This document shows positions 3,604 to 56,462 of a stretch of 64,000 bases of DNA, in pieces. The notes beneath the pieces were generated by a model. The model did no database searches. It saw only the letters and a list, made by a program, of their open reading frames with translations, and was not told the origin of the DNA. Every line of letters starts with the position of its first letter. Position 1 is the stretch's first letter. The stretch comes from Shinella zoogloeoides (GTDB lineage: Bacteria > Pseudomonadota > Alphaproteobacteria > Rhizobiales > Rhizobiaceae): contig NZ_CP093528.1 in assembly GCF_022682305.1 (NCBI RefSeq), forward strand, positions 4,146,501 through 4,210,500, written 5' to 3'. Position numbers and translations under genes: made by a program.

Positions 3604-4182
3604 ATGGAAAATGAAACCGATCCCCTGGAAAGCGCCATCGGCGAGCGTCTCCGGCTGCTACGCGTGGCGCACGGTCAGACCCTCGACGATCTGGCCGGCG
3701 CCTCCGGCGTCAGCCGGGCGATGATCTCGCGCATCGAGCGCGGCGAGGCCAGTCCCACGGCGCAGCTCCTGTCGCGGCTCTGCGCCGCGCTGGACCTGAC
3801 GCTCTCCGCCTTCTTCGCCTTTTCCGAAGGGGCGGGCGATCCGCTGTCGCGCCGCGAGGCGCAGACCGTCTGGCGCGACCCCGAGACCGGCTACCAGCGC
3901 CGCGCCGTCTCGGCCCCGAACACGGCCTCGCGGGTCGAGGTGATCGACGTGGCGTTCCCGGCCGGCGCGCGCATCGCCTATCCGCCGGAAACGGCCAAGG
4001 CGGGCATGACGCAGCACGTCTGGCTGTTCTCCGGCGCATTGCGCATGACGGTCGGCGAAACCGTGCACGACCTTCGCCCTGGTGACTGCCTCTACATGAG
4101 CATCACCGAGGGACACGTCTTCGAGAACCCCGGCAGCACGACGGCGCATTACGCCGTGCTGCTGGATCGAGGCCGCAATTGA
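3604..4182 (+). CDS. XRE-family regulator with C-terminal cupin domain
   Basis: A 192-residue protein. Residues about 12-66 form an XRE helix-turn-helix (GERLRLLRVAHGQTLDDLA, then SRAMISRIERGEASPT). The C-terminal half is a cupin_2 barrel (LRPGDCLYMSITEGHVFENPG), as in regulators of amine, sulfur or amino acid genes. The start codon follows the palindrome and lacks a clear Shine-Dalgarno sequence, so the mRNA could be leaderless; an upstream ATG at 3562 would place the operator inside the frame and is less likely. The adjacent GNAT gene begins 11 bases downstream and is probably co-transcribed. Confidence 0.85.
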   Translation: MENETDPLESAIGERLRLLRVAHGQTLDDLAGASGVSRAMISRIERGEASPTAQLLSRLCAALDLTLSAFFAFSEGAGDPLSRREAQTVWRDPETGYQRRAVSAPNTASRVEVIDVAFPAGARIAYPPETAKAGMTQHVWLFSGALRMTVGETVHDLRPGDCLYMSITEGHVFENPGSTTAHYAVLLDRGRN

Positions 4183-4193
4183 GGCAGGAAAAG

Positions 4194-4772
4194 ATGAGCG
4201 AGATCAGGCTGCTCGACGAGATCGAAACCCGCGCCCGCATGGGCGAGCTTGCCGACGTGCTGGCCGATTGCGTTGCCGGCGGCGCCTCCGTCGGCTTCAT
4301 GGCGCCCTATGGGCCGGCCGATGCGCTGCCCTTCTGGGAAGGTGTGGCGACGGCGGTCGGCGAGGAGGCGACGCTGCTCTTCGCCGCGGAGCGGGCGGGC
4401 CGGATCGTCGGTACGGTGCAGGTCGGCATCCGCCAGATGCCGAACCAGCCGCACCGGGCGGATGTGAAGAAGCTGCTCGTCATGGAAAGCGAGCGCGGCC
4501 GCGGCCTTGCCCGCGCGCTGATGGCGCTTGCGGAGGCGGAGGCGGCCCGACGCGGCAAGACCGTGCTGGTGCTCGACACGGCGACCGGCAGTCCGGCGGA
4601 GACGGTCTATGAGCGCCTCGGCTGGCAGCGCGCCGGCGTCATCCCGGACTATGCGCTCTACCCGGACGGCCGCTACTGCGCGACGACCTTCTTCTACAAG
4701 CGGATCGGTGACGCGCCCTGTGCCGAAACGGTGCAGGGCGGCGTTCATGCGATGGAAAGAACCGTGCTGTAG
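4194..4772 (+). CDS. GNAT-family N-acetyltransferase
   Basis: A 192-residue cytoplasmic acetyltransferase. The acetyl-CoA binding motif A is seen as VMESERGRGLARALMALAEAEA near residues 98-120, and the last third has the usual YERLGWQRAG strand. The ATG at 4194 follows an AGGCAGGAAAAG ribosome binding site; the frame is also open from an upstream TTG at 4179. It likely forms a two-gene unit with the XRE-cupin regulator. The acceptor substrate is unknown. Confidence 0.85.
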   Translation: MSEIRLLDEIETRARMGELADVLADCVAGGASVGFMAPYGPADALPFWEGVATAVGEEATLLFAAERAGRIVGTVQVGIRQMPNQPHRADVKKLLVMESERGRGLARALMALAEAEAARRGKTVLVLDTATGSPAETVYERLGWQRAGVIPDYALYPDGRYCATTFFYKRIGDAPCAETVQGGVHAMERTVL

Positions 4773-43826: not shown

Positions 43827-44234
43827 TCAATCGAGAAGTTCGCGGGGAACCTTGCCGCCGTTCTCGGCCAGCGCGTTCAGCAACGCCTTGCGAAGCCATA
43901 TGTCCATTGTGGCGGTATCGCGCCTGTCGCCGGGATAACCCAGCTCGCCCGCAAGATCCTCGCGCGCGGCAAGGCCGGAATCGACGCCGAGAGCCGTTAG
44001 CAGATCCGCGGTCGAATGGCGCCAGTCGAGCGGTCGGCCGCTCCTTTCCGCCGCCGCGTCCAGCAGGGCGGCCACGTCGACGGGTTCCGGGCGCATCAGG
44101 GATTGAGGCTCGGCATTCGCGCCTCCAAGCGTCGCGGACACCTCGCTTTCGAGGCTGGGCGTTTCGGACGCCGAGGCCCTGCGCGCCGGCGCGCCGCCGA
44201 ACAGCCTGTCTTTGATGGAGCTGAATGTTCCCAT
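43827..44234 (-). CDS. DUF3597-family protein
   Basis: 135 residues. It starts MGTFSSIKDRLFG and ends with the DUF3597 domain (VDVAALLDAAAERSGRPLDWRHSTADLLTALGVDSGLAAREDLAGELGYPG; WLRKALLNALAENGGKVPRELL). The start at 44234 has an AGAGGATT ribosome binding site. This is the last chromosomal gene before the integrated element, 113 bases from its left attachment site. The function is unknown. Confidence 0.88.
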   Translation of the reverse strand: MGTFSSIKDRLFGGAPARRASASETPSLESEVSATLGGANAEPQSLMRPEPVDVAALLDAAAERSGRPLDWRHSTADLLTALGVDSGLAAREDLAGELGYPGDRRDTATMDIWLRKALLNALAENGGKVPRELLD

Positions 44235-44346: not shown

Positions 44347-44363
44347 GATGGCGGACAGAGAGG
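44347..44363 (+). repeat. attL core repeat
   Basis: GATGGCGGACAGAGAGG, identical to 56371-56387. It duplicates the last 15 bases (including CCA) of tRNA-Ser plus two flanking bases, the usual footprint of tyrosine integrase insertion at a tRNA 3' end. Confidence 0.92.
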
Positions 44364-44610
44364 TTGTGCGAGCAGCCTTGAAAATCAGTCCGCTGACTTG
44401 TCCAACCTCAAGAAATGCGACTTTGAAAAGATTGAGGAAATCGACGCATCGGCCAACCGCGTAAAGGTTGCCGCTCTCTGGCTTCATAAGCACCGTACCA
44501 CGCTGGCGCGACCCGTCATTCCGGAGCTGCGCGAGCGCTTCCAGCTTACCAATCTCGAAGCTATCGAGGTAACCAAACAGGCGCATGCCCTGGCATATCC
44601 GGGGGCGTGA
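44347..44610 (+). CDS. 3' part of a gene split by integration (87 codons, no start in place)
   Basis: This frame is open leftward through the attL core into the chromosome but has no ATG or ribosome binding site; a TTG at 44398 is the only weak start. Joined in frame to 56344-56370 in the excised circle it becomes a 96-residue protein starting [15 protein letters not shown]. The body (ASANRVKVAALWLHKHRTTLARPVIPELRERFQLTNLEAIEVTKQAHALAY) is helical and resembles small phage DNA-binding proteins in style only. Its stop overlaps the region just before the replication-type gene. Confidence 0.7.
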   Translation, partial: DGGQRGCASSLENQSADLSNLKKCDFEKIEEIDASANRVKVAALWLHKHRTTLARPVIPELRERFQLTNLEAIEVTKQAHALAYPGA

Positions 44611-44612
44611 CG

Positions 44613-45452
44613 ATGGCGATCCTCAAGCAGAACGATGTCCTTTTCGCCCACAAGGCGCTCAACCTCATGCCGGGCATCACCGATGCGACCAGACGCGTTG
44701 CCGGGGCGATCATCGATCATTTTAACAAGCTCCATGGGCAATGCGATCCCGGCGTAGAGCGGATCTCTCGGATGCTCGACATCGACCGTGCGACTGTCAT
44801 CCGTGCCACGGACAAGCTTCACGAGCTTGGCCTCGTTACGAAGGTGAGCCATGGCGGCAAGGCCCATCGTGCTGCCTACCTACCGAATTGGGAGCGCTTC
44901 CGCACCATCGTGGAAGAATGGGATGCACGCATGAAGACCGGCGATGCGCCCGATACCCAATGCCATTCTACCGGAACTGTTGCCAAGCAATCGGCAGTCA
45001 AGGTCGCAAGCGTGCGACGTTCAAGGTCGCAAGGATGCGACGTTAAAGGTCGCAGGGATGCGACACAAACCCTTCGAAGGAACCCTTCGAATAAACCCAT
45101 CGAAGGGGAGCGCGCGGAAAATCCACCGGAGAAACCGCCGGCTTGCCACTCGCCGAGCGCGCAGAATGGGCTCTTGAAAGGGAGAAAGCCGCCCGCGCAG
45201 CGTGCCATGCTCTTGCCGATTAGCGGGGGGAAGAGCCCCAGCTACGCGGATGCAGCAAGGGCGGCGGCCGAACGGCGGTGGTACATGCAGGTTCATGACC
45301 TCGGCGTGAAGGCGGAGACAGATGTGCTGGAGTGGATGACGCAGGACAGGCACGAGGCGGCGACACAAGCCGAGATGCAACGCAGGGGCGGAGGATTGGC
45401 CTTCATCGCAGCGATGATGCAGGAAAAAGCACATGCCGCAGGCGGGCGATGA
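44613..45452 (+). CDS. Helix-turn-helix replication initiator-like protein
   Basis: 279 residues. Residues about 15-90 form a winged helix (ALNLMPGITDATRRVAGAIIDHFNKLHGQCDPGVERISRMLDIDRATVIRATDKLHELGLVTKV), the HTH_36 type found in phage/plasmid replication and regulatory proteins. A low-complexity basic linker follows, encoded by iterons. The C-terminal helix is QEKAHAAGG. Having iterons inside the gene parallels lambda gene O with its origin. A GTG at 44607 is an alternative start. Initiator function is inferred. Confidence 0.65.
   Translation: MAILKQNDVLFAHKALNLMPGITDATRRVAGAIIDHFNKLHGQCDPGVERISRMLDIDRATVIRATDKLHELGLVTKVSHGGKAHRAAYLPNWERFRTIVEEWDARMKTGDAPDTQCHSTGTVAKQSAVKVASVRRSRSQGCDVKGRRDATQTLRRNPSNKPIEGERAENPPEKPPACHSPSAQNGLLKGRKPPAQRAMLLPISGGKSPSYADAARAAAERRWYMQVHDLGVKAETDVLEWMTQDRHEAATQAEMQRRGGGLAFIAAMMQEKAHAAGGR
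44997..45065 (+). repeat. Three 23-bp iterons inside the replication-type gene
   Basis: Three direct repeats with a 23-bp period. Each contains a hyphenated inverted repeat GTCGCA-N4-TGCGAC, at 45003-45018, 45026-45041 and 45049-45064. The spacers are AGCG, AGGA and GGGA. An AT-richer stretch with three CC(C/A)(T/A)TCGAA repeats follows at 45070-45105. This is a candidate origin of replication of the excised element. Confidence 0.8.
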
Positions 45453-45599
45453 GGGGCGGCGGGTCCTTCCGGCAGCAGGGGGTGCGGGCGGAGAACGGCC
45501 CGAGATTTTACCCGGTGTGGGCCGGATTTAAAGCTAAAAGGTTTTGGGAAAGTGCAGTTTGATACGACGAAAATGCATAGCTTGCAAGGGGTTAGCGGG

Positions 45600-46085
45600 A
45601 TGATCGGAGAACCTCGTTCACTCTCGAAGAGCGGGTTTGCAAAGGCTGTCAACGTCTCGCCCGGACGGGTGTCCCAGATGATCGCAAAGGGATTGCCGGT
45701 CGAAGCCGATGGCAAGATCGACGTTGCGCGTGGCCGGCTTTGGATCAACGAGAACGTCGATGTCGGCAGGAGCGCCGCCCAGGGGCAGAGCGCCTTTGCT
45801 TTCACCGATGAACCGCATCGCCGCTCCCTCACGGCCGAGAAAACCAGACTGGCGAAGGAGCAGGCAGACGCGGCCGAGCTGCGCAACAAGGTGCTTCGCG
45901 GCGACCTGGTGAAGGCTGGCGATGTGGAGCGGGAATGGGCCGACGTGCTCCGGAAGGTCCGCGCCGGCGTCTTGGCCGTCACCTCGCGGGTCCGCCAGCA
46001 TCTCCCGCACCTCACTGCACACGATGCCAGCGTTATCGACAACGAGTTGCGTCGCGCTCTGGAGGAAATCGCCCATGACCGCTGA
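45600..46085 (+). CDS. Terminase small subunit (Nu1-like)
   Basis: 161 residues. An N-terminal winged helix (LSKSGFAKAVNVSPGRVSQMIAKGLPVEADGKIDVARGRLWINENV) typical of lambda Nu1 binds the packaging site; a coiled coil (TAEKTRLAKEQADAAELRNKVLRGDLV) follows, then the assembly region for the large subunit. The start at 45600 has AAGGGG eight bases upstream; ATG 45573 is an alternative. Its end overlaps the large subunit start by 11 bases. Confidence 0.88.
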   Translation: MIGEPRSLSKSGFAKAVNVSPGRVSQMIAKGLPVEADGKIDVARGRLWINENVDVGRSAAQGQSAFAFTDEPHRRSLTAEKTRLAKEQADAAELRNKVLRGDLVKAGDVEREWADVLRKVRAGVLAVTSRVRQHLPHLTAHDASVIDNELRRALEEIAHDR

Positions 46086-47865
46086 AATTCTCGCCACGAT
46101 CCGGCGCAACGCGTTGGCCGCGCTGCTTCCGCCGCCCCGGCGCAGGCTCTCCGAGTGGATCGAACAGCACGTCTTGCTGCCGAGCGACGTGTCCGCATTG
46201 CCGGGTCCGGTACAGCTCTGGCCGTTTCAGCACGAGATTGCCGACGCAATCGGGGACCCTGCTATCGAGCGGGTGACGCTGGTCAAGCCGGTGCGCGTCG
46301 GTTTCACGACGTTGCTCACCTCGGCGCTGGCGGGTTCCGTCGCGAACGATCCTGCTCCGATCCTTTGCCTCCTGCCGACCGAAGCGGACTGCCGCGACTA
46401 CATGGTTTCGGATATCGAGCCGATCTTCGCGGCGTCGCCGACACTTTCCGGCCTGCTGGGGCGCGGCGAAGACGATGAGAGCGACCGCAACACGCTACTG
46501 CATCGCCGCTTTCCGGGTGGCTCGCTGAAGATTGTCGCCGCGAAGGCCCCGCGTAATTTGCGCCGACACAATGTTCGCGTGCTCCTGTGCGATGAGGTGG
46601 ACGGGATGGAGAATGGGGCTGAAGGTTCTCCGATCCTGCTCGCAGAGCGGCGCACGCTGTCGTTCGCGGATCGGAAAATCGTCGTCGGATCGACGCCGGT
46701 TTTTGCCGACACGAGCCATGTGCTTCGGTCCTATGCGCTCTCGGATGGCCGCGTTTTCGAGGTCCCGTGCCCTGAATGCGGCGAATTCAATGAAATCGGC
46801 TGGGGTGATATTCAGTGGCCGGAGGGCAAGCCGGAAGCCGCCGCCTATGCGTGCCCGCACTGCGGTTGCCTCATCGATGAGCGACACAAGCCGGCGATGG
46901 TGTTGGCCGGGCGATGGCGCGCGACGCGGCCGGAGGTGGCCGGCCACGCTGGATTCCGCCTGAATGCGCTGGTGTCGCTGCTGGCCAATGCGTCTTGGGG
47001 AAAACTGGCGCGCGAATTCCTCTCCGCCAAGGATGATCCCGCCTTGCTACAGGTTTTCACGAACACCATCCTGGCGCAGGGGTGGAACGAGGCCGGCGAG
47101 GATCTTGACGAGGGCACGCTCTACGGCCGGCGTGAAAAATTCGGCCTGGAAGCCGTGCCGGCCGACGTGCTGGCGCTCACGGCCGGCGTGGATGTGCAGC
47201 GCGATCGCCTCGAATGTACCTTCCTCGGCTGGACGGAAGCGGGCGAATGCTTCGTGCTGGGGCACCGCGTTATCTGGGGCAATCCGCACGACGACGAAAC
47301 GTGGAGCGAACTCGACGCGGTGCTGTCGATACGGTGGCCTCACGCCTTGGGCGGCAAGATCGGCCTCGACGCGGCCGTTGTCGACAGTGGCGACGGTGAG
47401 ACGATGGAACGGGTCTACGGCTTCTGCTTTCCGCGCTATCGTCGCAAGATCCTCGCCGGCAAGGGCGTGGCCGGCAACCGGCCGTGGATTGAGATGAGCA
47501 AGGTGAAGAACCAGCGCGGCCGGCTGTTCATCATCGGCGTGGACGGCATCAAGAGCCACTTGGTCGCGCGCTTGACGCGCGGCAACACAATACGGTTTGC
47601 GATGGATCTGCCGGCCTCTTGGTTCGAACAACTCGCCAGCGAACGCATCGTGGTACGCTACACGCGCGGCCAGCCGTCGCGGCGTTTCGAGCGCATTCCG
47701 GGCAAGCAGGCGGAAGGTCTCGATTGCGTAGTTTATGGTTTTGCCGCGCGGCAGATGATCAACATCAACTGGATGGTTCGCGCCGATGAATTGTGCAGCG
47801 CCTTACCGCCAATCATCGCAGCGCGGCCAAGCACGACGAAATCGAGTTGGATGAGCAAAAAGTAA
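46075..47865 (+). CDS. Terminase large subunit (lambda gpA family)
   Basis: 596 residues. The ATPase P-loop-like KPVRVGFTT is at residues 71-79 (lambda gpA has a similar K-x-x-R-x-G form), and Walker B VLLCDEVDG has Asp173 and Glu174. A zinc-ribbon-like CPECG...CPHCG pair precedes the nuclease domain with ALTAGVDVQRDRLE and AAVVDSGDGE. The length is slightly below lambda gpA (641). The last 30 residues are low in similarity and lead into AT-rich DNA preceding the Fic module. Confidence 0.93.
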   Translation: MTAEILATIRRNALAALLPPPRRRLSEWIEQHVLLPSDVSALPGPVQLWPFQHEIADAIGDPAIERVTLVKPVRVGFTTLLTSALAGSVANDPAPILCLLPTEADCRDYMVSDIEPIFAASPTLSGLLGRGEDDESDRNTLLHRRFPGGSLKIVAAKAPRNLRRHNVRVLLCDEVDGMENGAEGSPILLAERRTLSFADRKIVVGSTPVFADTSHVLRSYALSDGRVFEVPCPECGEFNEIGWGDIQWPEGKPEAAAYACPHCGCLIDERHKPAMVLAGRWRATRPEVAGHAGFRLNALVSLLANASWGKLAREFLSAKDDPALLQVFTNTILAQGWNEAGEDLDEGTLYGRREKFGLEAVPADVLALTAGVDVQRDRLECTFLGWTEAGECFVLGHRVIWGNPHDDETWSELDAVLSIRWPHALGGKIGLDAAVVDSGDGETMERVYGFCFPRYRRKILAGKGVAGNRPWIEMSKVKNQRGRLFIIGVDGIKSHLVARLTRGNTIRFAMDLPASWFEQLASERIVVRYTRGQPSRRFERIPGKQAEGLDCVVYGFAARQMININWMVRADELCSALPPIIAARPSTTKSSWMSKK

Positions 47866-48016
47866 GGCAGCCCAGCTATTTTCGGCGGGTCAGCCCCGCG
47901 CCATCTTGAGGTCGTAAAGATCTGTTAGTTTTAGAATGTCAAGATGAAAAGAGAATTTTCCTCTGAAGGAAATCAGCGTGTTAACGTTTCTTAACCATAT
48001 GTGGCAATCCGTTTCG

Positions 48017-48045
48017 TTGACACGTGGTCCGAAGCGCCCTAATTT
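48017..48045 (+). promoter_or_regulatory. Sigma-70 type promoter of the Fic module
   Basis: TTGACA (48017-48022) and TAATTT (48040-48045) are separated by exactly 17 bases, inside a 251-base AT-rich spacer after the terminase. It is the best sigma-70-like promoter in the element and points at the antitoxin gene 72 bases downstream. Confidence 0.7.
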
Positions 48046-48116
48046 CATGTAAAATGAATAAGAAGATTGTTTGGATTCAGGCGTTTATCTGAACGAGACA
48101 ATCCTGGAGAGAGACA

Positions 48117-48308
48117 ATGACCGACCTTCGCACCAACGAAAAGCTTCTGACCAGGCTCAAGTCCGACAGCAACCGAAAGCTGACCGAGGACGAGCTTTAC
48201 AAGCAGCGCGTATCTTTTATTATGGGCTCCCTATCCGACAACAGTACCGTGACGCGGGCCCAAGTCACTGAAGTACTCGCCAACTTCGAGGGCCGCAAGA
48301 GCGCCTAA
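48117..48308 (+). CDS. Small antitoxin partner of Fic (VbhA-like position)
   Basis: 63 residues, with a GGAGAGAG ribosome binding site. It is followed without any gap by the fic gene. In class I Fic systems a protein of this size blocks the ATP site with a helix carrying (S/T)-x-x-x-E-(G/N). Here the aligned helix reads RVSFIMGS, with Ser33 but Gly37 where Glu is expected, followed by STVTRAQV. This may be a divergent antitoxin clade or a weakened inhibitor. Confidence 0.7.
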   Translation: MTDLRTNEKLLTRLKSDSNRKLTEDELYKQRVSFIMGSLSDNSTVTRAQVTEVLANFEGRKSA

Positions 48309-48998
48309 GTGATTCTGTTCGAACTGACGAGAACTGAAGAGCATCCCGTTTATCAAAAGCTAATGATCGAGAACGGAAATCGGCACTACGATTTCCTTCG
48401 GTCCATTGTGGTCGCCTCAATAGAAATGGGGCGGCCTTTTTTGTCTCAGCAAATTCTCAAATCTCTCAATTTCCATGCAATCGTGTGTCTGCACACGCAC
48501 GCTGGAGAGTATAGACCGTGCCAAGTAACCGTTGGCAATCACGAGCCGCCAGCCTTTTTCCAAGTCATCCCTCTCATGGATGATTTCATAAATGACCTGA
48601 ATCGCGCTTGGGAGACGGCAGATCCTGTTGTGCTCGCCACATATGCTCTTTGGAGGCTGAATTACATCCACCCATTTATCAACGGAAACGGGCGAACGGC
48701 ACGAGCAGCGGCATACTATATCCTCTGCATTTCGGCTGGTCGGTGGTTGCCGGGTGACGCAATACTTCCTGAACTTCTCCGGCAGAATAGGCCCGCCTAC
48801 GTCGCGGCTTTGCAGCATGCTGACCAGACATACGCCGAGGGTGGCGAGCCGGACCTTGGACCCCTTCACCACATCGTCTCGACGTTGCTCGCACAGCAGC
48901 TAGGCATGGATTTGAACAATGGTGCGCAGCATGCCAATGAAGAGGCAAAGGACGGCGCCGATGAACCTAATAACAAACCAGTTGATGGCGAAGCCTAG
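48309..48998 (+). CDS. Fic-domain AMP-transferase (toxin)
   Basis: 229 residues, GTG start directly after the antitoxin stop. The active-site loop HPFINGNGRTAR (residues 121-132) is a perfect HPFx(D/N)GNGRxxR motif, with catalytic His121 and phosphate-binding Arg129/Arg132. Upstream helices (FQVIPLMDDFINDL, ATYALWRLNYI) are typical. Such enzymes AMPylate targets such as gyrase. It sits between packaging and lysogeny genes as cargo of the element; codon use and base composition are more AT-rich than the neighbours. Confidence 0.92.
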   Translation: MILFELTRTEEHPVYQKLMIENGNRHYDFLRSIVVASIEMGRPFLSQQILKSLNFHAIVCLHTHAGEYRPCQVTVGNHEPPAFFQVIPLMDDFINDLNRAWETADPVVLATYALWRLNYIHPFINGNGRTARAAAYYILCISAGRWLPGDAILPELLRQNRPAYVAALQHADQTYAEGGEPDLGPLHHIVSTLLAQQLGMDLNNGAQHANEEAKDGADEPNNKPVDGEA

Positions 48999-49024
48999 TG
49001 GGTTCGCAAACTTTGCGAACCCAC
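48998..49024. terminator. Perfect 27-bp palindrome between fic and the leftward genes
   Basis: Arms GTGGGTTCGCAAA and TTTGCGAACCCAC surround a single C. It begins on the last base of the fic stop codon and ends nine bases before the stop of the converging gene. It is probably a bidirectional terminator, though it lacks a T-run. Confidence 0.6.
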
Positions 49025-49033
49025 AGCGCAAAG

Positions 49034-49318
49034 CTACCGACGACTTTCGATGCTGAAAGTCACCTGCCGAGAGTATTCCAAAGCCCGAATCCTCTTGGTT
49101 TCGGTCACGTCTGGGCGATCCCTGCCAATACTATCCACATGATTTAGCGCAAGTGCCTTGAATTGAAGAGCAATGCGCCGTTGATCGTCGTCGGCCGCAT
49201 AATCAATCATCGTGTCTAGGTGGGAAGCGATTTCAGAGCGCAATGCCGGAGCATTGGGATCATCGAGTAGGGTGGTCGCTCGAATGAAAGTCTCCTCAAA
49301 TTCTGTCAGTTTTGGCAT
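49034..49318 (-). CDS. Hypothetical protein
   Basis: 94 residues, mostly helical and acidic, with no family recognised (TEFEETFIRATTLLDDPNAP; IDYAADDDQRRIALQFKALALNHVDS). It is the third gene of a leftward XRE operon, nine bases after the preceding gene. It is plausibly a lysogeny-maintenance or cargo protein. Confidence 0.6.
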   Translation of the reverse strand: MPKLTEFEETFIRATTLLDDPNAPALRSEIASHLDTMIDYAADDDQRRIALQFKALALNHVDSIGRDRPDVTETKRIRALEYSRQVTFSIESRR

Positions 49319-49327
49319 TCTTGGATC

Positions 49328-49582
49328 CTACCTTAAGTGCTTGGCGCCGATGACTTGATACAAATCGAACAATGCTGAATGGGCCTTTGAGGCTAGAGCA
49401 TAGAATTCAGCATCCAGCAGGATTGCAGGATGCTCAAGGAGGTGGCGCCCGATGTTGTCCGCCATGACCGAAGCCGTGTGTAGGGCTTCGTGGCAACCGT
49501 AGGAGCCGGCGGCGAATTTTTCGGGCTCCTCGATATGGGCCTCGGCCAGCGCGGCCAATCGTTCTGTTTCAACGTCTTCCAT
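49328..49582 (-). CDS. Hypothetical protein
   Basis: 84 residues, helical, with conserved-looking His/Cys (GSYGCHEALHTASVMADNIGRHLLEHPAILLDAEFYALASKAHSALFDLYQVIG). There is no family recognised. Its start overlaps the stop of the XRE repressor gene by one base (TAATG), so the two are coupled. Confidence 0.65.
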   Translation of the reverse strand: MEDVETERLAALAEAHIEEPEKFAAGSYGCHEALHTASVMADNIGRHLLEHPAILLDAEFYALASKAHSALFDLYQVIGAKHLR

Positions 49583-49812
49583 TACTTCTTCAACCTCACT
49601 CCCGGCCCCTCGCCATTCTCGGGTACGAAAATAACCCCCATAGCTTCAAGTGCAGACTGTAGCGCAAGGAGATTGTTCGTGTTCGGCGTGCGCCGGCCTT
49701 TCTCAAAATCAACGACGGTATTGCGCGAAACGTTCGCTGCCTCCGCCAGCTTCGCTTGATCCATTTCGACGAGCGCTCTTGCAGCGCGGCACTGTGCAGG
49801 GGAAATTGGCAT
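49582..49812 (-). CDS. XRE-family repressor of the element
   Basis: 76 residues forming a single helix-turn-helix domain (CRAARALVEMDQAKLAEAANVSRNTVVDFEKGRRTPNTNNLLALQSALEAMGV). It is the first gene of the leftward cluster and divergent from the structural gene operon, with two operators in the spacer. By position it is the CI-like switch of the element. The longer frame to 49947 would cross the operators and is rejected. Confidence 0.85.
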   Translation of the reverse strand: MPISPAQCRAARALVEMDQAKLAEAANVSRNTVVDFEKGRRTPNTNNLLALQSALEAMGVIFVPENGEGPGVRLKK

Positions 49813-49814
49813 TA

Positions 49815-49859
49815 TGCTCAACGTTGTGCATCGTGTTGACTTATAGCCCAATGTTGGGC
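49815..49859. promoter_or_regulatory. Two operators of the XRE switch
   Basis: TGCTCAACGTTGTGCA (49815-49830, a 16-bp palindrome with one mismatch pair) and GCCCAATGTTGGGC (49846-49859) share an inner CAA-x2-TTG core. A leftward -10-like TATAAG (49845-49840) and -35-like TTGCGC (49870-49865) flank the second site. A rightward TTGACT (49836-49841) lies between the two sites. Confidence 0.65.
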
Positions 49860-49904
49860 ATGGTGCGCAATAGATAGCACGAAGCACCCTATAGGAGCAA
49901 CGCG

Positions 49905-50363
49905 ATGGGCGACCATTTTTGCGAACGGGAAAGCTATGCCTTCCCACAGGTGATCCCTTCAGATACTGGCGGGAGGCAGGAACCCCACACTCTTACACGC
50001 CGCGCAATCCCCAAGGGTGCGCTGGGGATCGGCGCGGCATCAGTTTCGGATACCGCCAGCAGCAAGACTTTCGATCTTCAGCACTGGCTCGATAGCGCCG
50101 ACCCATTCTGGGTCGCGGACTATCACGCGCGCCGCTTGGTGGAAGCAATGGGGATGCTGGATGCGACCCGCCTCTATGGCTTCAACGTCAATGCGGACAA
50201 AGGCTTTGCGCTGATCGTCGGCGATCCGATCGAGGATCGGAAAGCGCCCGTCGCGCGTGTCTTTCTGGATGACGGTGAACCTTTGCTTGCCGCCGACCGG
50301 ATGCTGACGACGATTTATCCATCACACAAGGTACGGCCCCATGGCGAGCGCGGCCGATCATGA
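49905..50363 (+). CDS. Hypothetical protein, first gene of rightward operon
   Basis: 152 residues with an AGGAGCAACGCG ribosome binding site. No known family; the middle reads FDLQHWLDSADPFWVADYHARRLVEAMGMLDATRLYGFNV and the end is basic. It is the first gene controlled by the switch region, a position where early regulators or antirepressors are usual. Its stop overlaps the next start (ATGA). Confidence 0.65.
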   Translation: MGDHFCERESYAFPQVIPSDTGGRQEPHTLTRRAIPKGALGIGAASVSDTASSKTFDLQHWLDSADPFWVADYHARRLVEAMGMLDATRLYGFNVNADKGFALIVGDPIEDRKAPVARVFLDDGEPLLAADRMLTTIYPSHKVRPHGERGRS

Positions 50364-50740
50364 GTGGCCGCTTTCGTTCCAACGAGAATTTCACGCGCCT
50401 TGTCGAGATGACGCCGAGACTTCGGCTTGAGATTGAGGCAACCATAGAGCGCCTGGTTGCCCTGCTCGACCTCTACGATGGTGACGAAAATCGCGAGGCG
50501 GATGATCTGGATGAGGATGGCGGTGATGACGAACCCTCATTGGGGTGGACCGCTGTGCAATCTCAGCTCGACGCCTACGGTGATGCCGACCGGCACCACT
50601 ATTTTTTCGGCTATGATCGGGAGCTTGATGACTGCGATGATGAGGACAGCGGGGACCGTTGGCCTTCAGATCAGCTTACGGCTAAGCATTTGCGATCTGA
50701 AGATAGGTTTATAGCCGTCAAGCGAAGAAACCCCACGTGA
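50360..50740 (+). CDS. Acidic hypothetical protein
   Basis: 126 residues, strongly acidic in two blocks (DGDENREADDLDEDGGDDEP and DRELDDCDDEDSGDR), a DNA-mimic-like charge profile. An N-terminal helix (RLRLEIEATIERLVALLDL) precedes them. No family recognised. It is coupled to the gene before it. Confidence 0.6.
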   Translation: MSGRFRSNENFTRLVEMTPRLRLEIEATIERLVALLDLYDGDENREADDLDEDGGDDEPSLGWTAVQSQLDAYGDADRHHYFFGYDRELDDCDDEDSGDRWPSDQLTAKHLRSEDRFIAVKRRNPT

Positions 50741-50779
50741 GGTTTATCGTTGACTTTCTATAAGCCTCATGCGAGGCTT
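50728..50779 (+). promoter_or_regulatory. Two successive hairpins before the MerR-like gene
   Basis: An 18-bp palindrome centred on CACGTG (50728-50745) overlaps the end of the acidic ORF. Then AAGCCTC/GAGGCTT with loop ATGC (50762-50779) is followed by TTTT. The second hairpin contains the GAGG that would be the ribosome binding site of the ATG at 50785, and could act as a terminator or hide the site. Confidence 0.5.
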
Positions 50780-50784
50780 TTCCC

Positions 50785-51375
50785 ATGTTGATCGATCTCG
50801 AATCCCCTCTCTACTCCCAGAGCGATGTGTTGAAGATGCTTCCGGCCCTCAAGGCCAAGCAACTCCAGAACTGGAGCGATCGCGGCATTCTGGACGCCGG
50901 CGATCAGAAGCCGGGAAAAGGCTCGCGCCGCAAATACACTCCGGCCGGCGTGATCGGCCTCGACTTCCTGCAGAAGGCAACCGATTTCGGGGTTCCGCCC
51001 TCGAATGCCATGGACATGGCGCAGGATTATCTGGACGCCGCCGCCGAATTTCTCGATAGCAATCCAGAGGTTATCACCCGCACTGATGGTTGCCGCTGGA
51101 TACCCTTTCGCCCCGGAAACATGGACAAATTCAGGCGGGCGACGATCACCCGGCACGGCAACGAGTATTTCTTCTTTCTCGATAATGACAGGGCCGATAC
51201 CCCGTTCGCCGAGCTATCACCCGACCTCAAGGAAAAACTCGGTGAGTGCGACGACGAAACGTACCGGCGTTTCAACGAGCGCATCCGCTTGAGTTTCGGG
51301 ATCACGGTGGAGGTTGATTATCGGATCGCCCAAACCGTCAATCGAATGTTCCTTCTGGAAGCGGGGATGATCTAA
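50785..51375 (+). CDS. MerR-like winged-helix protein of the element
   Basis: 196 residues. The N-terminal half reads as a MerR-type helix-turn-helix (YSQSDVLKMLPALKAKQLQNWSDRGILDAGDQKPGKGSRRKYTPAGVIGLDFL). The C-terminal half is unassigned. It lies directly before the portal gene (two bases), so it is part of the capsid operon. A role in late-gene control or small-terminase-like packaging is possible; neither is shown. Confidence 0.65.
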   Translation: MLIDLESPLYSQSDVLKMLPALKAKQLQNWSDRGILDAGDQKPGKGSRRKYTPAGVIGLDFLQKATDFGVPPSNAMDMAQDYLDAAAEFLDSNPEVITRTDGCRWIPFRPGNMDKFRRATITRHGNEYFFFLDNDRADTPFAELSPDLKEKLGECDDETYRRFNERIRLSFGITVEVDYRIAQTVNRMFLLEAGMI

Positions 51376-51377
51376 CC

Positions 51378-52697
51378 ATGGGCCTTTCGCTCTCGAATTT
51401 TTTCCGCCGTTCGAACAAAACCGAAGCAAACCCTGTCCGTAGCATGAACGCGGCGGCGGCTTGGCCCGACGATCCGCGCATGCCGTCGCCGAACCGCGAT
51501 GTGCTGGCAAGCGCTCAAGTCGTCGGCCAGCGCGTCGCCGGGCTTGCTAAGAACGATCCCATCGTCGCAAGCGCGGTCGATCTGCTGGTCTCCATGATCG
51601 TCGGGATCGGCACCCGCCTGAATACCGCCGACGAGGCGGTCGACGAGGATTTCAACGGCTATCGCTTCGATCCCTCGCGCAGGTTGTCCCTGACGGCGCT
51701 GGAACAGGCGGTGATTCGTTCGTGGGTCGTTTCGGGCGAGGCGCTGGCGTTGCTGGTTGTCATCGAAGGCGGCTTCGCGGTCCACCTCCTCAATCCCGAA
51801 CAGCTCGACCGGTCCAAGAATGAGGATCTGGGAAACGGGGACCGGATCATTTCGGGCGTCGAGCTGGATGCATATGACCGCGTTCGCGCCTACTGGCTCC
51901 AGCCGCAGGCTCCCGACGATCCTTTCATGCGGGTCACACAGGCGCAGCGTTTCGACGCCCGCGACGTGATCCACATCTTCGAGCGGGAGTTTCCGGGGCA
52001 GGTTCGCGGCATTTCGCCGTTGACCGCCGTTCTGCCGGCCGTCAACACGGCAAGCATCGCCACCGACGCCGGCCTGAAGAAGCTCCAGGTGGCCGCCTTG
52101 TTCACCGCCTTCCTCACGACCCCGGACGGCAGCGACATGTTCGGCGGCGATGCCCGGCCGTCGCTGGAGCCCGGCGCGCTGATCCGGCTCAATCCCGGCG
52201 AGGACGTGCGCAGCGCCCAGGGCGGCGACGCGGGCGACCTCCCCGCGTTCCTGAAGCTGATCTACCACCAGTGCGCCGCCGCGATCGGCTGCACCTATGA
52301 AGACCTGACCGGCGACCTCTCCGGCGTAAACTATTCCAGCTACCGTGCCGGGGCGCTGACCGCGCGCCGGAAGGCGGAGGCCCGCCGCAAGGTCCTGCTG
52401 ATCGACGGGCTGCTGGTTCCCGTCTTCGAACGCTGGCGCGCCATCGAGCAGTTGAAGGGGCGCGCCATTGCTGGCGATCCGGCGAAGTGGATCGAACCCA
52501 CCTGGCCGGAAATCGACCGCCAGAAGGAAGCGAACGCCGACATCGCTCTTGTGAATGCCGGCCTGAAATCCCGCAAGGAAGTCATCGAGGGCAGGGGCCG
52601 CGATTTTTCGGCGGTCAATGCCGAAATCGAGGCTGACACCTTCCGGCCCGCATCCGCTTCCACCAAACCCGAACAGAAGGAGGCCGACGCGCCATGA
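51378..52697 (+). CDS. Portal protein (lambda gpB family)
   Basis: 439 residues; the lambda-family portal pattern includes DPIVASAVDLLVSMIVGIG, AVIRSWVVSGEALALL, VIHIFEREFPGQVRGISPLTAVLPA, and the C-terminal TYEDLTGDLSGVNYSSYRAGALTARRKAEARR. It forms the DNA-entry dodecamer at the capsid vertex. It is somewhat shorter than lambda gpB (533). The stop overlaps the next start (ATGA). Confidence 0.92.
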   Translation: MGLSLSNFFRRSNKTEANPVRSMNAAAAWPDDPRMPSPNRDVLASAQVVGQRVAGLAKNDPIVASAVDLLVSMIVGIGTRLNTADEAVDEDFNGYRFDPSRRLSLTALEQAVIRSWVVSGEALALLVVIEGGFAVHLLNPEQLDRSKNEDLGNGDRIISGVELDAYDRVRAYWLQPQAPDDPFMRVTQAQRFDARDVIHIFEREFPGQVRGISPLTAVLPAVNTASIATDAGLKKLQVAALFTAFLTTPDGSDMFGGDARPSLEPGALIRLNPGEDVRSAQGGDAGDLPAFLKLIYHQCAAAIGCTYEDLTGDLSGVNYSSYRAGALTARRKAEARRKVLLIDGLLVPVFERWRAIEQLKGRAIAGDPAKWIEPTWPEIDRQKEANADIALVNAGLKSRKEVIEGRGRDFSAVNAEIEADTFRPASASTKPEQKEADAP

Positions 52698-54484
52698 CGC
52701 AGACGGTCCACCGCTTTCAGGCGACCGCCCGCCCGAACAGCTACGATCCCGAAACCCGCACCTTCACCGTCGTCGCCATCACCGGCGGCAAGGTGGACCG
52801 CGGTGCTTACTTTGAGGTGGTCGATATCGACCGCTTCTTCGCGGCCGGCCTGCCCGAGAGCCTGCCGCTCCAGACCGATCATTCCACGAGCGTCCGAGAC
52901 ACCATCGGGCGCTTGACGAATTTCCGGCTGGAAACTCTGCCGGACGGCACGCGCGCTGTCCTGGCGGATGCCACGCTTTCGAGCCGGGCCGACAACGAAG
53001 CTCTCGCCGCCAATCTCAAGGATGGCATGCAGACCGGCTTCTCTGTCGGCTTTCAGGTTGCCCGCTGGGTCAACGGGACCGATCCCGTGACGGGCAAGAA
53101 AGTGCGAACCGCCGTGGCCGGACGGATGTTCGAAGGCTCGCTCGTGATGCTGCCGGCCGATCCCCTCTCAACAGTTAGGAGTAATTCCATGCCGACGACG
53201 AACCCGGCTCCGGGTGAAGACGAAGACGTTTCCCAGAGCAATGACATACAGCTCCGCAGCCTCGCGCTGGCTGCGGGCGTGGCGGAAACCGTGATCAATG
53301 CGGTTCTCGCTACCGAAGCCACCACCGAGCAGAAGATGCAGACCATGCTGGCGACGCTCAACGCAAAGCCGACCGTGCGCACCGCATCGAACCACAATGA
53401 CGAGACGCTGGAAAATCCGCAGGTGCTGCGCCGCGCCGCCGTCGAGGCATTCGATGCCATCAATCGCGGGGAAGCGCCGGCCGGGAATGCCGCTGCGGTC
53501 TTCGCCGATGGCGAGGCCGCCTTCGCCCGCCGCCTCCTGCGCAATGCCGGCGAGAACATCATCGGCCTCTCCGACGACATGGTGAAGCGCAACGCGGCGG
53601 CCACGAGCGACTATGCGATCATTGCCGGCGCAACCTTCAACCTCTCCATGCGCCGGGAATACGAAGCGCAGTCCTCGCCGGTCTCCGCCCTGTTCGGCCG
53701 CACGACGGTTTCCAGCTTCAACAAGGAAACGGTCGGCCTGGTGGACTGGACCACGCTCGCCATCGGCGACAAGCTGGAAAACGGCCACTACCGCGCCTCC
53801 TATGTCGATGAGAGCGGCGAGACCGTTTTCGTCTACACCATCGGCGGGGTGACGGCGATCAGCCGCGAGTTTTCCATCAACGCCGGGTCCCGCCTCGGCA
53901 ACATGGGCCAGAAGTACGGTAAGCGCCTCGCCGCCGACGTTGCCGATCGGCAGGTCGCCTTCCTCGTGCAGGACAGCTTTGCCGGCCCGAAGATGGCCGA
54001 CAATACCGCTGTCTTCCATGCCGGCCGGGGCAATATCGAAACGTTCGCCCAGGACGCCGAAACCTACGTCGCCAAGGTTATGGGCTTCCGTTCCAAGATG
54101 GCGAAGCGGAAGGGCAAGGGCGACGTGATGATCGGCGAGTATCCGACGCACTGGCTGGTGCACTCGGACTACGAGGAAACGGCCGTCCGGATCCTCGCCA
54201 GCGTGACGGCCAGCACCATCGCCGACGTGAACCCGCTCGCCGGAAAGCTCCAGGTTGTCGTCGAGCCCCGGTTGACCGACGCGGCCAAAAGCTGGCTCGC
54301 GGTCGAGCCCACCAAGATGGATGGCGCCACCCGCGTTTACCTGCGCGGGCAGGAAGCGCCCTTCACCGACAGCCGCCAGAACTTCGATACCGACAATATC
54401 GACTTCAAGATCCGGCAGGACTTCGGGCTCGGCTGGCTGGAATGGCGGTCCTGGACCCGCCTCGACCACACGGCCGGGGGCTGA
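52694..54484 (+). CDS. Fused prohead protease / major capsid protein
   Basis: 596 residues. Residues 1-160 are an HK97-type (U35-like) maturation protease, with His in QTDHSTSVRDTIGRL and Ser in LKDGMQTGFSVGF. Residues from about 300 form a Mu/HK97-like major capsid protein (SALFGRTTVSSFNKETVGLVDWTTLAIGDKLENGHY; LRGQEAPFTDSRQNFDTDNIDFKIRQDFGLGWLEWRSW). Between them is a scaffold-like stretch. An in-frame ATG with its own ribosome binding site at residue 166 could also yield capsid protein alone. Confidence 0.9.
   Translation: MTQTVHRFQATARPNSYDPETRTFTVVAITGGKVDRGAYFEVVDIDRFFAAGLPESLPLQTDHSTSVRDTIGRLTNFRLETLPDGTRAVLADATLSSRADNEALAANLKDGMQTGFSVGFQVARWVNGTDPVTGKKVRTAVAGRMFEGSLVMLPADPLSTVRSNSMPTTNPAPGEDEDVSQSNDIQLRSLALAAGVAETVINAVLATEATTEQKMQTMLATLNAKPTVRTASNHNDETLENPQVLRRAAVEAFDAINRGEAPAGNAAAVFADGEAAFARRLLRNAGENIIGLSDDMVKRNAAATSDYAIIAGATFNLSMRREYEAQSSPVSALFGRTTVSSFNKETVGLVDWTTLAIGDKLENGHYRASYVDESGETVFVYTIGGVTAISREFSINAGSRLGNMGQKYGKRLAADVADRQVAFLVQDSFAGPKMADNTAVFHAGRGNIETFAQDAETYVAKVMGFRSKMAKRKGKGDVMIGEYPTHWLVHSDYEETAVRILASVTASTIADVNPLAGKLQVVVEPRLTDAAKSWLAVEPTKMDGATRVYLRGQEAPFTDSRQNFDTDNIDFKIRQDFGLGWLEWRSWTRLDHTAGG
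53177..53191 (+). promoter_or_regulatory. Internal ribosome binding site and start in protease-capsid gene
   Basis: AGGAG (53177-53181) is seven bases ahead of ATG 53189-53191, in frame, at codon 166. It sits exactly at the end of the protease domain. Confidence 0.6.
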
Positions 54485-54486
54485 CC

Positions 54487-54717
54487 ATGGCGGAGGCTCA
54501 CACCCGCGAGGAGCTGATTGCTCAGCTCCGAAAAGCTCAGGAGCAGCGTGGCGGCGTCAAAAGCTACTCTCTTCAGTCGCCCGTCACCCGCGAAAGTGTC
54601 GAGTTCATGAGCGACGCGGAGATCGAGGCCAGCATCAACGCCATCAAGCGCGAACTTCGGGAGCTGGATAATCCGGCTCCCCGCATCTTCAACATTCAGG
54701 CACGCAAAGGTTACTAG
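54487..54717 (+). CDS. gpW-like head-tail connector
   Basis: 76 residues. The layout follows lambda gpW (68 residues): two helices around a short strand pair (LIAQLRKAQEQRGGVKSYSLQS..., SVEFMSDAEIEASINAIKRELREL) and a basic tail (RIFNIQARKGY). It would close the portal and accept a tail. It lies two bases after the capsid gene. Confidence 0.8.
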   Translation: MAEAHTREELIAQLRKAQEQRGGVKSYSLQSPVTRESVEFMSDAEIEASINAIKRELRELDNPAPRIFNIQARKGY

Positions 54718-54719
54718 CC

Positions 54720-55046
54720 ATGAAAAACTACATTCAGCCGGGCAACATCGTCAACCTCACCGCGCCCGCCGGCGGCCTCGCTTCCGGACAGGGCCATCTC
54801 TTCGGCGCGCTGTTCGGCATTGCCACCACGGCCGCGCCGGAGGGCCAGAAGGTCGCGGTCTCCGCCGACGGCGTGTTCACGTTGCCGAAGGCGACGGGCG
54901 GCGGGCTCACCGAAGGCCAGAAGGTCTATTGGGACGCCACCGCGAAGAAAGCGACGGCCACCGCCACCGACAATGCGATGATCGGCCACGCCGTCGAGGC
55001 CGCCGCCGCCGGAGCAACCACCGCGACCGTGAGGCTCGCCAGCTAG
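54720..55046 (+). CDS. DUF2190 capsid cement/decoration protein
   Basis: 108 residues with the DUF2190 beta-rich pattern (NYIQPGNIVNLTAPAGGLASGQGHLFGALFGIATTAAPEGQKVAVSADGVFTLPKA; GQKVYWDATAKKAT). It binds the outside of the capsid in known phages. It is located two bases behind the gpW-like gene. Confidence 0.88.
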   Translation: MKNYIQPGNIVNLTAPAGGLASGQGHLFGALFGIATTAAPEGQKVAVSADGVFTLPKATGGGLTEGQKVYWDATAKKATATATDNAMIGHAVEAAAAGATTATVRLAS

Positions 55047-55062
55047 GCGTGAGGATAGTGAG

Positions 55063-55251
55063 ATGGCGAACAGGCAAGCGGCCATAAAGCAGGCGGATGC
55101 AAAGCGCCTTTTCAAGGCGGCGCTAGAAGCCGGCTTCGAGGCTGCAAAAATCACGCTGCACCCTGATGGCCGGATCGAAGCTGCGGCGTCTCTCGCAGAG
55201 AGCGCCGTCACCTCCCCCGTCAGCAATAGCTGGGACGACGTACTGAAATGA
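55063..55251 (+). CDS. Small protein upstream of integrase
   Basis: 62 residues, helical, basic N-terminus (RQAAIKQADAKRLFKAALEAGFEAAKITLHPDGRIEAA). Its stop overlaps the integrase start (ATGA). Such small genes are frequently found before tyrosine integrases in Rhizobiales elements; an excisionase-like role is possible but no HTH is evident. Confidence 0.7.
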   Translation: MANRQAAIKQADAKRLFKAALEAGFEAAKITLHPDGRIEAAASLAESAVTSPVSNSWDDVLK

Positions 55252-56342
55252 AGAGGAAGCGCCGCAACGGAATGCCGGATTATTGCACGCTGGTCACTGA
55301 CCGGCACAAGAAAAAGCGTGTTCGGTTCCGTGCAAAAGGCGTGGATACCTACCTTCCCTATCCCCCATTGGGACCGGAATTCGAGAAGGCATATGCCGCC
55401 GCGCTGGCGGGAATTACGGAGTGGCGCGCCAATATCGGCGCGAGCAAGACCCGGCCGGGTTCCTTCGATGCCTTGGCCGTATCCTATTATCGTTCCCCGG
55501 ATTTTCAGGGGCTTCGCGATAGCACGAAGCAGACCTATCGCCGGATCATCGAGAATTTCCGCGAGAACCACGGCAAGCGGATGATGCGCGATCTTCGGCG
55601 CGAGCACGTCAAGGCGATCATTGGCGACATGGCGGACCGGCCGCAGGCCGCGAACCGCCTCCTGTCGCTTCTCAAGATCATGCTCGACCACGGCCTAGAC
55701 AACGGCTGGATTGCCGTCAATCCGGCGCAGGGCGTCAAGGGCTTCTCGAAGAAAACGAAGGGCTTCCACACATGGATCGAGGCGGAAATCGCCGCCTATG
55801 AGGCGCGGCACCCGGAAGGGACCAAGGCCCGGCTCGCCCTCGTCTTGCTTCTCTACACCGCGCAGCGCCGCAGCGATGTGGTTGCGATGGGCTGGGAGAA
55901 GATCAAGGGCAAATACATCGAGGTCAAGCAGGTGAAGACCGGGGCGGAGCTGGATTTGTTCATGCTTCCGACCCTCACCGACGCTATCCGGCCGCTTCCC
56001 CGCGACAAACCAACTTTCCTGACTACCGAATTTGGGAAGCCGTTCACGCCGGCCGGTTTCGGAAACTGGTTTCGCGACCGCTGCAACGAAGCTGGGCTTT
56101 CGCATTGCTCCGCTCACGGCCTCCGAAAGGCGGCAGCTCGTCGGATGGCAGAAGGAAAAATGAGCGCGGACATCATCAAGGCCGTCACGGGCCACACCGA
56201 TCTCAAACAGGTCTCGGTCTATACAGCCGCAGCCAACCAGGCCGCCCTTGCAGAGAAGGGCCTGAAGGCCATCGCTGGGAAGAAAAAGCGAACAAATTCT
56301 GTCCAACCGAAACGAAAAGTTGGACAAGAGAAAGGCGAATAA
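55248..56342 (+). CDS. Tyrosine recombinase (integrase)
   Basis: 364 residues. An SAM-like core-binding domain (residues about 70-160) is followed by the catalytic domain with R207 (YTAQRRSDV), H290-x-x-R293 (SAHGLRKAA), H316 (TGHTDLKQ) and nucleophile Y325 (VSVYTAAAN). The gene ends 28 bases before the attR core. It is transcribed towards the tRNA and, in the circle, through attP into the replication genes. Confidence 0.96.
56301..56325 (+). promoter_or_regulatory. Hairpin at the 3' end of the integrase gene
   Basis: Perfect 7-bp arms GTCCAAC and GTTGGAC lie across 11 bases, just ahead of the AAAGG that would serve the split ORF start at 56344. It may be a recombinase arm site or an RNA hairpin; sequence does not decide. 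Confidence 0.45.
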
Positions 56343-56343
56343 G

Positions 56344-56370
56344 ATGAAAAATCAACATCTTGTTGAATTG
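56344..56370 (+). CDS. 5' part of the split gene (MKNQHLVEL, continues only in the circle)
   Basis: The ATG at 56344 is one base after the integrase stop and has AAAGG (56331-56335) upstream at a normal spacing. Its frame enters the attR core at GAT 56371. In the integrated state it reads on into the antisense strand of tRNA-Ser. In the excised circle it continues in the same frame into 44364-44610. Confidence 0.65.
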
Positions 56371-56387
56371 GATGGCGGACAGAGAGG
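56371..56387 (+). repeat. attR core repeat
   Basis: An identical copy of 44347-44363. It covers the 3' end of the intact tRNA-Ser. Confidence 0.92.
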
Positions 56388-56462
56388 GATTCGAACCCTC
56401 GATAGAGTTTCCCCTATACACGCGTTCCAGGCGTGCGCCTTCAACCACTCGGCCACCTGTCC
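56373..56462 (-). tRNA. tRNA-Ser (anticodon GGA)
   Basis: 90 bases with encoded CCA. Acceptor GGACAGG pairs with TCTGTCC (last pair G-U), the discriminator is G, and the anticodon GGA is at plus-strand 56426-56428. A long class II variable arm and T-arm GAGGGTTCGAATCCCTC are present. It remains intact because the element restored its 3' end. It is the integration target. Confidence 0.97.

Follow-up and report, generated by a model that had tools for sequence, protein, structure and literature searches.

A reading frame split by the attachment site of a Shinella zoogloeoides phage satellite, and its candidate role as an excision-built bridge from integrase to replication genes

It is already known that the attachment site of a mobile element (attP) can lie inside a gene and that expression can be confined to the circular form. 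In mycobacteriophage BPs, attP is inside the repressor gene and integration changes the product (PMC4557955); Myxococcus phage Mx8 has attP within int, the integrase gene (PMC6070905), and archaeal suicidal integrases such as that of SSV1 have the attachment site within the integrase gene (PMC8371274). Tn916 yields distinct transcripts only when its ends are joined (PMC6540685), ICEKp1 has a state-dependent int promoter (PMC13023037), and SGI1 replicates after excision in dependence on a helper plasmid (PMC7826253). Capsid-forming phage-inducible chromosomal islands (cf-PICIs) are small satellites, on average 14 kb long, which make their own capsids (PMC10803314). What we take from these papers, here and below, comes from the portions of them that were covered. 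Here we analyse a 64,000-nucleotide stretch of Shinella zoogloeoides DNA (contig NZ_CP093528.1; the window), in which a 12,024-bp element integrated at a tRNA-Ser gene divides a reading frame between its two ends. The frame is indeed divided at the attachment site, and among related elements the two parts are in phase far beyond chance. What would be new is an excision-built bridge from the integrase to replication genes, present at many tRNA sites; no description of such a frame across attP, kept over many tRNA sites, was found in titles and abstract openings, a search outside which most subscription papers lie.

The element is enclosed by two identical copies of a 17-bp core (GATGGCGGACAGAGAGG), a direct repeat given without strand, which form attL (44347-44363) and attR (56371-56387). 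At the right end, the integrase stop ends at 56342 and is followed by a single base (G 56343) and then by an ATG at 56344, with AAAGG ending 8 nt upstream of this ATG. Read as an open frame, the ATG and eight further codons (56344-56370, + strand) give MKNQHLVEL and reach the core at GAT 56371. At the left end, the same frame runs from GAT 44347 through the core, a linker and a C-terminal three-helix domain to a TGA at 44608-44610 (44347-44610, + strand), a 3' piece of 87 open codons that is homologous in relatives. Counted separately on each side, this makes 9 + 87 = 96 codons. The original prediction, made from the letters of the window, had proposed just this frame on joining of the ends at the 17-bp core, and its start with the AAAGG word, its entry into attR, its open attL side and its length all agree with the coordinates. 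It had also placed the 5' piece in antisense tRNA-Ser in the integrated state; indeed, the piece reads antisense through the tRNA-Ser (GGA) gene (56373-56462, - strand), the integration target, intact at the right end of the element, as far as 56571. The claim that the 3' piece has no start stands in part: it holds no ATG, and in the chromosome next to attL the frame stays open for seven codons without a start, but a TTG at 44398-44400 (+ strand) lies in frame as the sole start upstream of the domain and may be an alternative start while the element is integrated. No Shine-Dalgarno (SD) word was seen by eye before this TTG, and among 16 other elements L043 alone has a start codon, again TTG, equally far from the core; the TTG is not a conserved N-terminus, and its conservation as such was what the prediction itself had named as telling against it. 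In L224, from the same genus, the core continues into tRNA-Ser with no integrase end ahead of it (judged by eye, at the edge of the locus), and this looks like an empty attachment site.

As in BPs, attP here lies within an open reading frame of the element; here, however, it falls in the first codons, and integration removes the start and, as we read it, the coupling. Integration takes the 5' end from the split frame and leaves the 3' end in place, and the repressor-like gene lies elsewhere (49582-49947), an arrangement other than the integration-dependent immunity of BPs. As in Mx8 and SSV1, integration recombines or splits the gene that holds the attachment site, but there the integrase is affected, whereas here the integrase (55248-56342) ends 28 nt ahead of the core and stays intact, and the next frame is split. 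The layout would fit circularization-dependent expression of the Tn916 kind, with the difference that the junction here also assembles a reading frame, which may couple int to a replication gene. In ICEKp1 expression signals likewise differ between the excised and integrated states, yet the switch there is a promoter for int, with no split coding frame toward replication. SGI1 differs in its helper-plasmid dependence, and the covered portions of PMC7826253 do not mention a frame spanning attP.

Relatives were gathered by their integrase and by the 3' piece, the latter with a profile of 3' pieces. The sample with both ends resolved comprises 29 elements: 17 out of 31 integrase places, six from other integrase searches and six reached via the 3' domain. 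The left end was placed with the aid of the 3'-piece match in 17 of the 29, which favours open frames, and from repeats alone in the other 12. An element was scored as in phase when a frame started by an ATG no more than 25 codons ahead of the core continues, past the core, in phase into 40 or more open codons. This is the case in 26 of the 29 elements, while the two out-of-phase pairings give 7 and 5; when ATG, GTG and TTG are all allowed, 28 are in phase as against 9 and 10 out of phase. Three elements depart from the ATG criterion: L149 (GTG), L216 (TTG) and L221. Ten of the 12 elements with a left end from repeats alone are in phase (3 and 3 out of phase), and 21 of the 23 integrase-reached elements pass. 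Since relatives are not independent, we picked 19 lineage representatives, of which 16 are in phase, compared with 4 and 3 out of phase; 1000 mononucleotide shuffles of these representatives (over the 90 nt that precede the core and the 300 nt that follow it) gave a mean of 3.27, a standard deviation of 1.68 and a largest value of 9. In a set of 17 elements, 16 of them with the domain, an ATG reaches the core in the domain's frame in 16, and in the other frames in 2 and 3. The phase holds while cores and integrases vary among the relatives, whose targets are tRNA-Ser (GGA, TGA, GCT), Glu (CTC, TTC), Phe (GAA), Arg (CCG, TCT) and Met (CAT). The spacing from start to core varies between lineages by whole codons (9, 7, 6, 8, 11 and others), 27 nt being common to the window, L042, L043, L044, L045, L013 and L152. 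The start lies one base past the integrase stop in close relatives and overlaps it in several others.

Past the core, the frame ends where the next gene begins. Its stop is between -8 and +5 nt from the next gene's start in 26 of the 29 elements (a next gene was found in 27), exactly at the ATGA-type -4 position in 16, and for the two remaining frames the first stop falls in this range in 7 and 3. The next gene was taken to be the longest nearby frame, with the start nearest the stop, a rule that makes the absolute counts generous, equally for all three frames. In the window, the next gene (44607-45452, + strand) is an HTH_36 gene, replication-initiation O-like, with a GTGA overlap with the split frame. 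Among 13 next genes scanned, seven are a replication initiator or primase-helicase (the window, L042, L161, L044, L046, L210 and L206) and two are phrog_15967, of unknown function, which L042 matches too; the rest are Bro-N, HNH, an unknown family or without a Pfam match. In weak scans, nothing terminator-like turned up from int to the core, and the + strand held no promoter-like site in 44347-44607.

The domain is present in 16 of the 29 spanning frames and absent from 13. The 12 elements placed by repeats alone are domain-less; 10 of them keep an in-phase frame, and the overlap with the next gene is likewise retained in most. The domain is thus optional where the in-phase frame and the overlap are kept, and what the elements have in common is, at the level of sequence, an open bridge that links the integrase with the next genes, and no single protein. 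The integrase gene and the first replication-side gene stand head to tail across attP, and integration cuts the frame between them within its first codons. On this layout we propose the following mechanism. After excision, ribosomes that finish int would begin again on the frame, pass through attP and reinitiate at the next gene; from the touching stops and starts in the circle, we infer both transcription and translational coupling from int to the replication gene. The int, bridge and replication genes would form one coupled operon in the circle only. In the integrated state, the replication gene sits behind host DNA and would be deprived of upstream transcript and of coupling, and int would read into the tRNA antisense. 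Excision would therefore switch replication on, and reintegration would switch it off. That excision assembles such a coupled operon, which integration breaks, we hold to be somewhat probable. On the wider proposal, that a class of alphaproteobacterial head-gene-only satellites uses an excision-built frame as a translational bridge so that the circle licenses replication, our judgement is evenly balanced.

The original prediction took the 96-residue protein itself to be what matters, as an excision sensor expressed from the circle only; its C-terminal domain may then act after excision, for example by preventing reintegration or by activating replication. Several properties of the domain speak for such a regulator. 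It is under purifying selection (w 0.07 in the closest pair, 0.18 for the window and L042, up to 0.65 elsewhere, with several pairs saturated), 91 of the 394 family genomes contain relatives of it, and in the 16 elements that carry it in the spanning frame it is the part that excision would restore. AlphaFold2 confidently predicts three helices in the 3' piece, with a mean pLDDT of 92-95 for residues 41-80, 83 for residues 81-87 and, over the first 30 residues, less than 60, and this domain may be HTH-like. On the other side stand the 13 spanning frames without it, and the genome G571, in which the domain is a separate, unsplit gene of the same element (L216, 7719-8434), with a phrog_25398 gene between the spanning frame and the domain gene. 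Elsewhere, other prophages included, it commonly forms a small gene of the usual kind that has an ATG to itself, for example of 55 to 66 residues. Sequence and fold searches of the PDB gave no significant match (best Foldseek E 1.1), and the family libraries give the domain no name beyond phrog_24797, of unknown function, which 18 of 31 aligned domain members match; the window's own piece, with E 0.021, falls below the threshold used for these 31. The part of the original prediction that stands is the split, in phase in relatives at different tRNA genes; a restored protein of one kind is not what they share, and we consider it unlikely that the protein is the point of the arrangement.

Another explanation keeps the DNA and drops the reading frame: the core and the integrase arm sites would be conserved, and the open frame would be a by-product. 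The 8-base TGTCCAAC occurs in five copies in the window, three of which are at the element ends, one within the linker (44399-44406, + strand) and two in the 3' end of int (56300-56307, + strand, and, inverted, 56319-56326, - strand); these are likely integrase arm sites, a role assigned from their position. The linker is partly attP itself, with one of these sites in it, and its protein sequence is weakly conserved (w 0.27 to 1.33); as a functional protein region it was considered and rejected on this ground. Conservation of DNA alone does not predict that the phase holds when cores and tRNAs differ, or that the stop fits the next start, and the phase test makes it a very unlikely account. 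It may also be that an internal start, either TTG 44398 or an in-core ATG, allows a short form to be made from the 3' piece in the integrated state as well, so that excision would alter the N-terminus only, similar to the BPs repressor switch. Besides the TTG of the window, four of the five Phe elements have a TTG at the matching linker position, L156 has an ATG at codon 34, the core itself holds an in-frame ATG in five of the 29 elements (L154, L205, L210, L216 and L219), and domain-only homologues have a start of their own. These positions are not conserved, five of the 17 elements have no start at all before the domain, and the attL of the window has no promoter-like site; we regard an internal start as highly improbable as the general explanation.

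A number of observations weigh against the bridge from integrase to replication genes. L221 fails the phase test, and its 18.5-kb att pair is doubtful; L216 passes only with TTG and L149 only with GTG. SD-like words precede 20 of the 29 starts, a figure that carries no chance control. In addition to the ATGs within the core, an in-frame ATG lies in the chromosomal flank of at least six of the 29 elements, which means that the start is not always lost on integration in the way that, for ATG, it is in the window. Six of the 13 scanned next genes are not of the replication type or are unknown, and the linker is barely conserved as a protein, as given above. Of the 31 integrase places, no more than 17 had both ends resolved, and the other 14 could behave differently. 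A natural circle junction was sought by DNA pattern, and the pattern returned only att sites beside tRNA genes, or the tRNA-less end in G426. Finally, in the full-size phage phi2LM21, which has a related integrase and a mapped site, the frame is open on both sides of the core and has no start codon.

An intact homologue in free phages, as the original prediction proposed to look for, has candidates among phage records with related integrases, which are leads rather than proof. Agrobacterium phage Rivra (PV764937, L234), deposited as circular, has an unannotated 62-codon frame just after int (4123-4311), whose start lies in a tRNA-Met-like core and is preceded by AAAGGAG; the next annotated gene is on the opposite strand, and the frame is a possible intact natural case. 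In Pseudanabaena phage Pan3 (ON968454, L235), also deposited as circular, an unannotated 63-codon frame (4086-4277) forms a TAATG with int and overlaps the following 131-codon frame by 8 nt. Azospirillum phage Cd (CU468217, L236) has an annotated 102-residue gene 71 (3918-4226), which starts 53 nt past int and shares 4 nt with gene 70. Searches with the 70-residue piece gave no match in phage or plasmid records, and those with the 87-residue piece gave none in viral contigs.

Its predicted genes mark the element as a phage satellite that carries head genes only and is integrated at a tRNA gene. After the O-like gene, it encodes on the + strand a terminase small subunit (45552-46085; phrog_57, 9.4e-31) and a terminase large subunit with GpA ATPase and nuclease parts (45922-47865, the true start probably lying downstream of 45922). 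A divergent HTH_3 regulator (49582-49947, - strand) is a repressor candidate by family match. Family matches further identify, on the + strand, a portal protein (51378-52697), a protease and major capsid fusion (52694-54484) and a head decoration or cement protein (54720-55046), with a weakly matching head-tail adaptor between the last two (54442-54717, + strand; phrog_2545, 0.003). A small open reading frame (ORF) that matches no family (55063-55251, + strand) has an ATGA overlap with the gene of the tyrosine integrase, itself a family match (55248-56342, + strand; TAA 56340-56342). No tail or lysis family was found among the element ORFs scanned, several small and middle-sized ones of which match no family. 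Between the terminase and the regulator region of the satellite sits a Fic/DOC family protein (48309-48998, + strand; PF02661, 6.6e-17). Sequence of the chromosomal gene beside attL (43827-44084) is present in a second copy elsewhere in the genome, at G000:C1:772361-772618, with 76% identity over 258 bases.

The hallmarks of cf-PICIs include an integrase, a regulator and a replication gene; cf-PICIs use the tails of a helper phage and are induced by it. With a capsid and packaging module of its own (terminase, portal, protease-capsid, decoration and the weak adaptor, with no tail or lysis family in the ORFs scanned), a length of 12,024 bp, an integrase, an HTH_3 regulator and an O-like gene, our element resembles them by gene content. 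The two kinds share capsids of their own and are close in length (14 kb on average there, 12 kb here). They differ in host, as cf-PICIs are described mainly from Enterobacteriaceae, Pasteurella, Morganellaceae and Firmicutes groups and ours is from Rhizobiaceae, and a frame spanning attP goes unmentioned in the covered portions of PMC10803314.

Around the 29 elements lie others whose ends were not paired and which were excluded (L145, G579, G675, G512, G510, G517, G776, G528:C30, G415, G557 and G771). In these, repeats of 11 to 15 bp away from a tRNA 3' end were discarded; the sequence around a 15-bp repeat in L209/G557 is unlike a tRNA end. G420, G532:C12, G484, G779 and G556 are outside the sample. 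In one repeat search a usable repeat was absent from 28 of 30 loci, partly since the contig or locus ends, and L048 and L082 fit the pattern, on two contigs. The right ends of L152 and L217 (G426 and G675) have the 5' piece and the core with no tRNA after them, and are rearranged or displaced ends. Two elements stand in tandem at tRNA-Phe in L160 (G745:C2 near 2270187) and in the IMG/VR contig of L150, where attL is directly preceded by another integrase; this integrase, which belongs to the first element, is a different one, and its end puts a stop before the core.

If the proposed bridge is true, excision and replication would be physically interlocked in these satellites: there would be no copying in place, as the coupled operon is absent from the chromosome. 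Since neither half looks like a gene, such a gene can be missed in the annotation of integrated elements. The phase across two att cores is a sequence test that may be applied to any collection of prophages and satellites.

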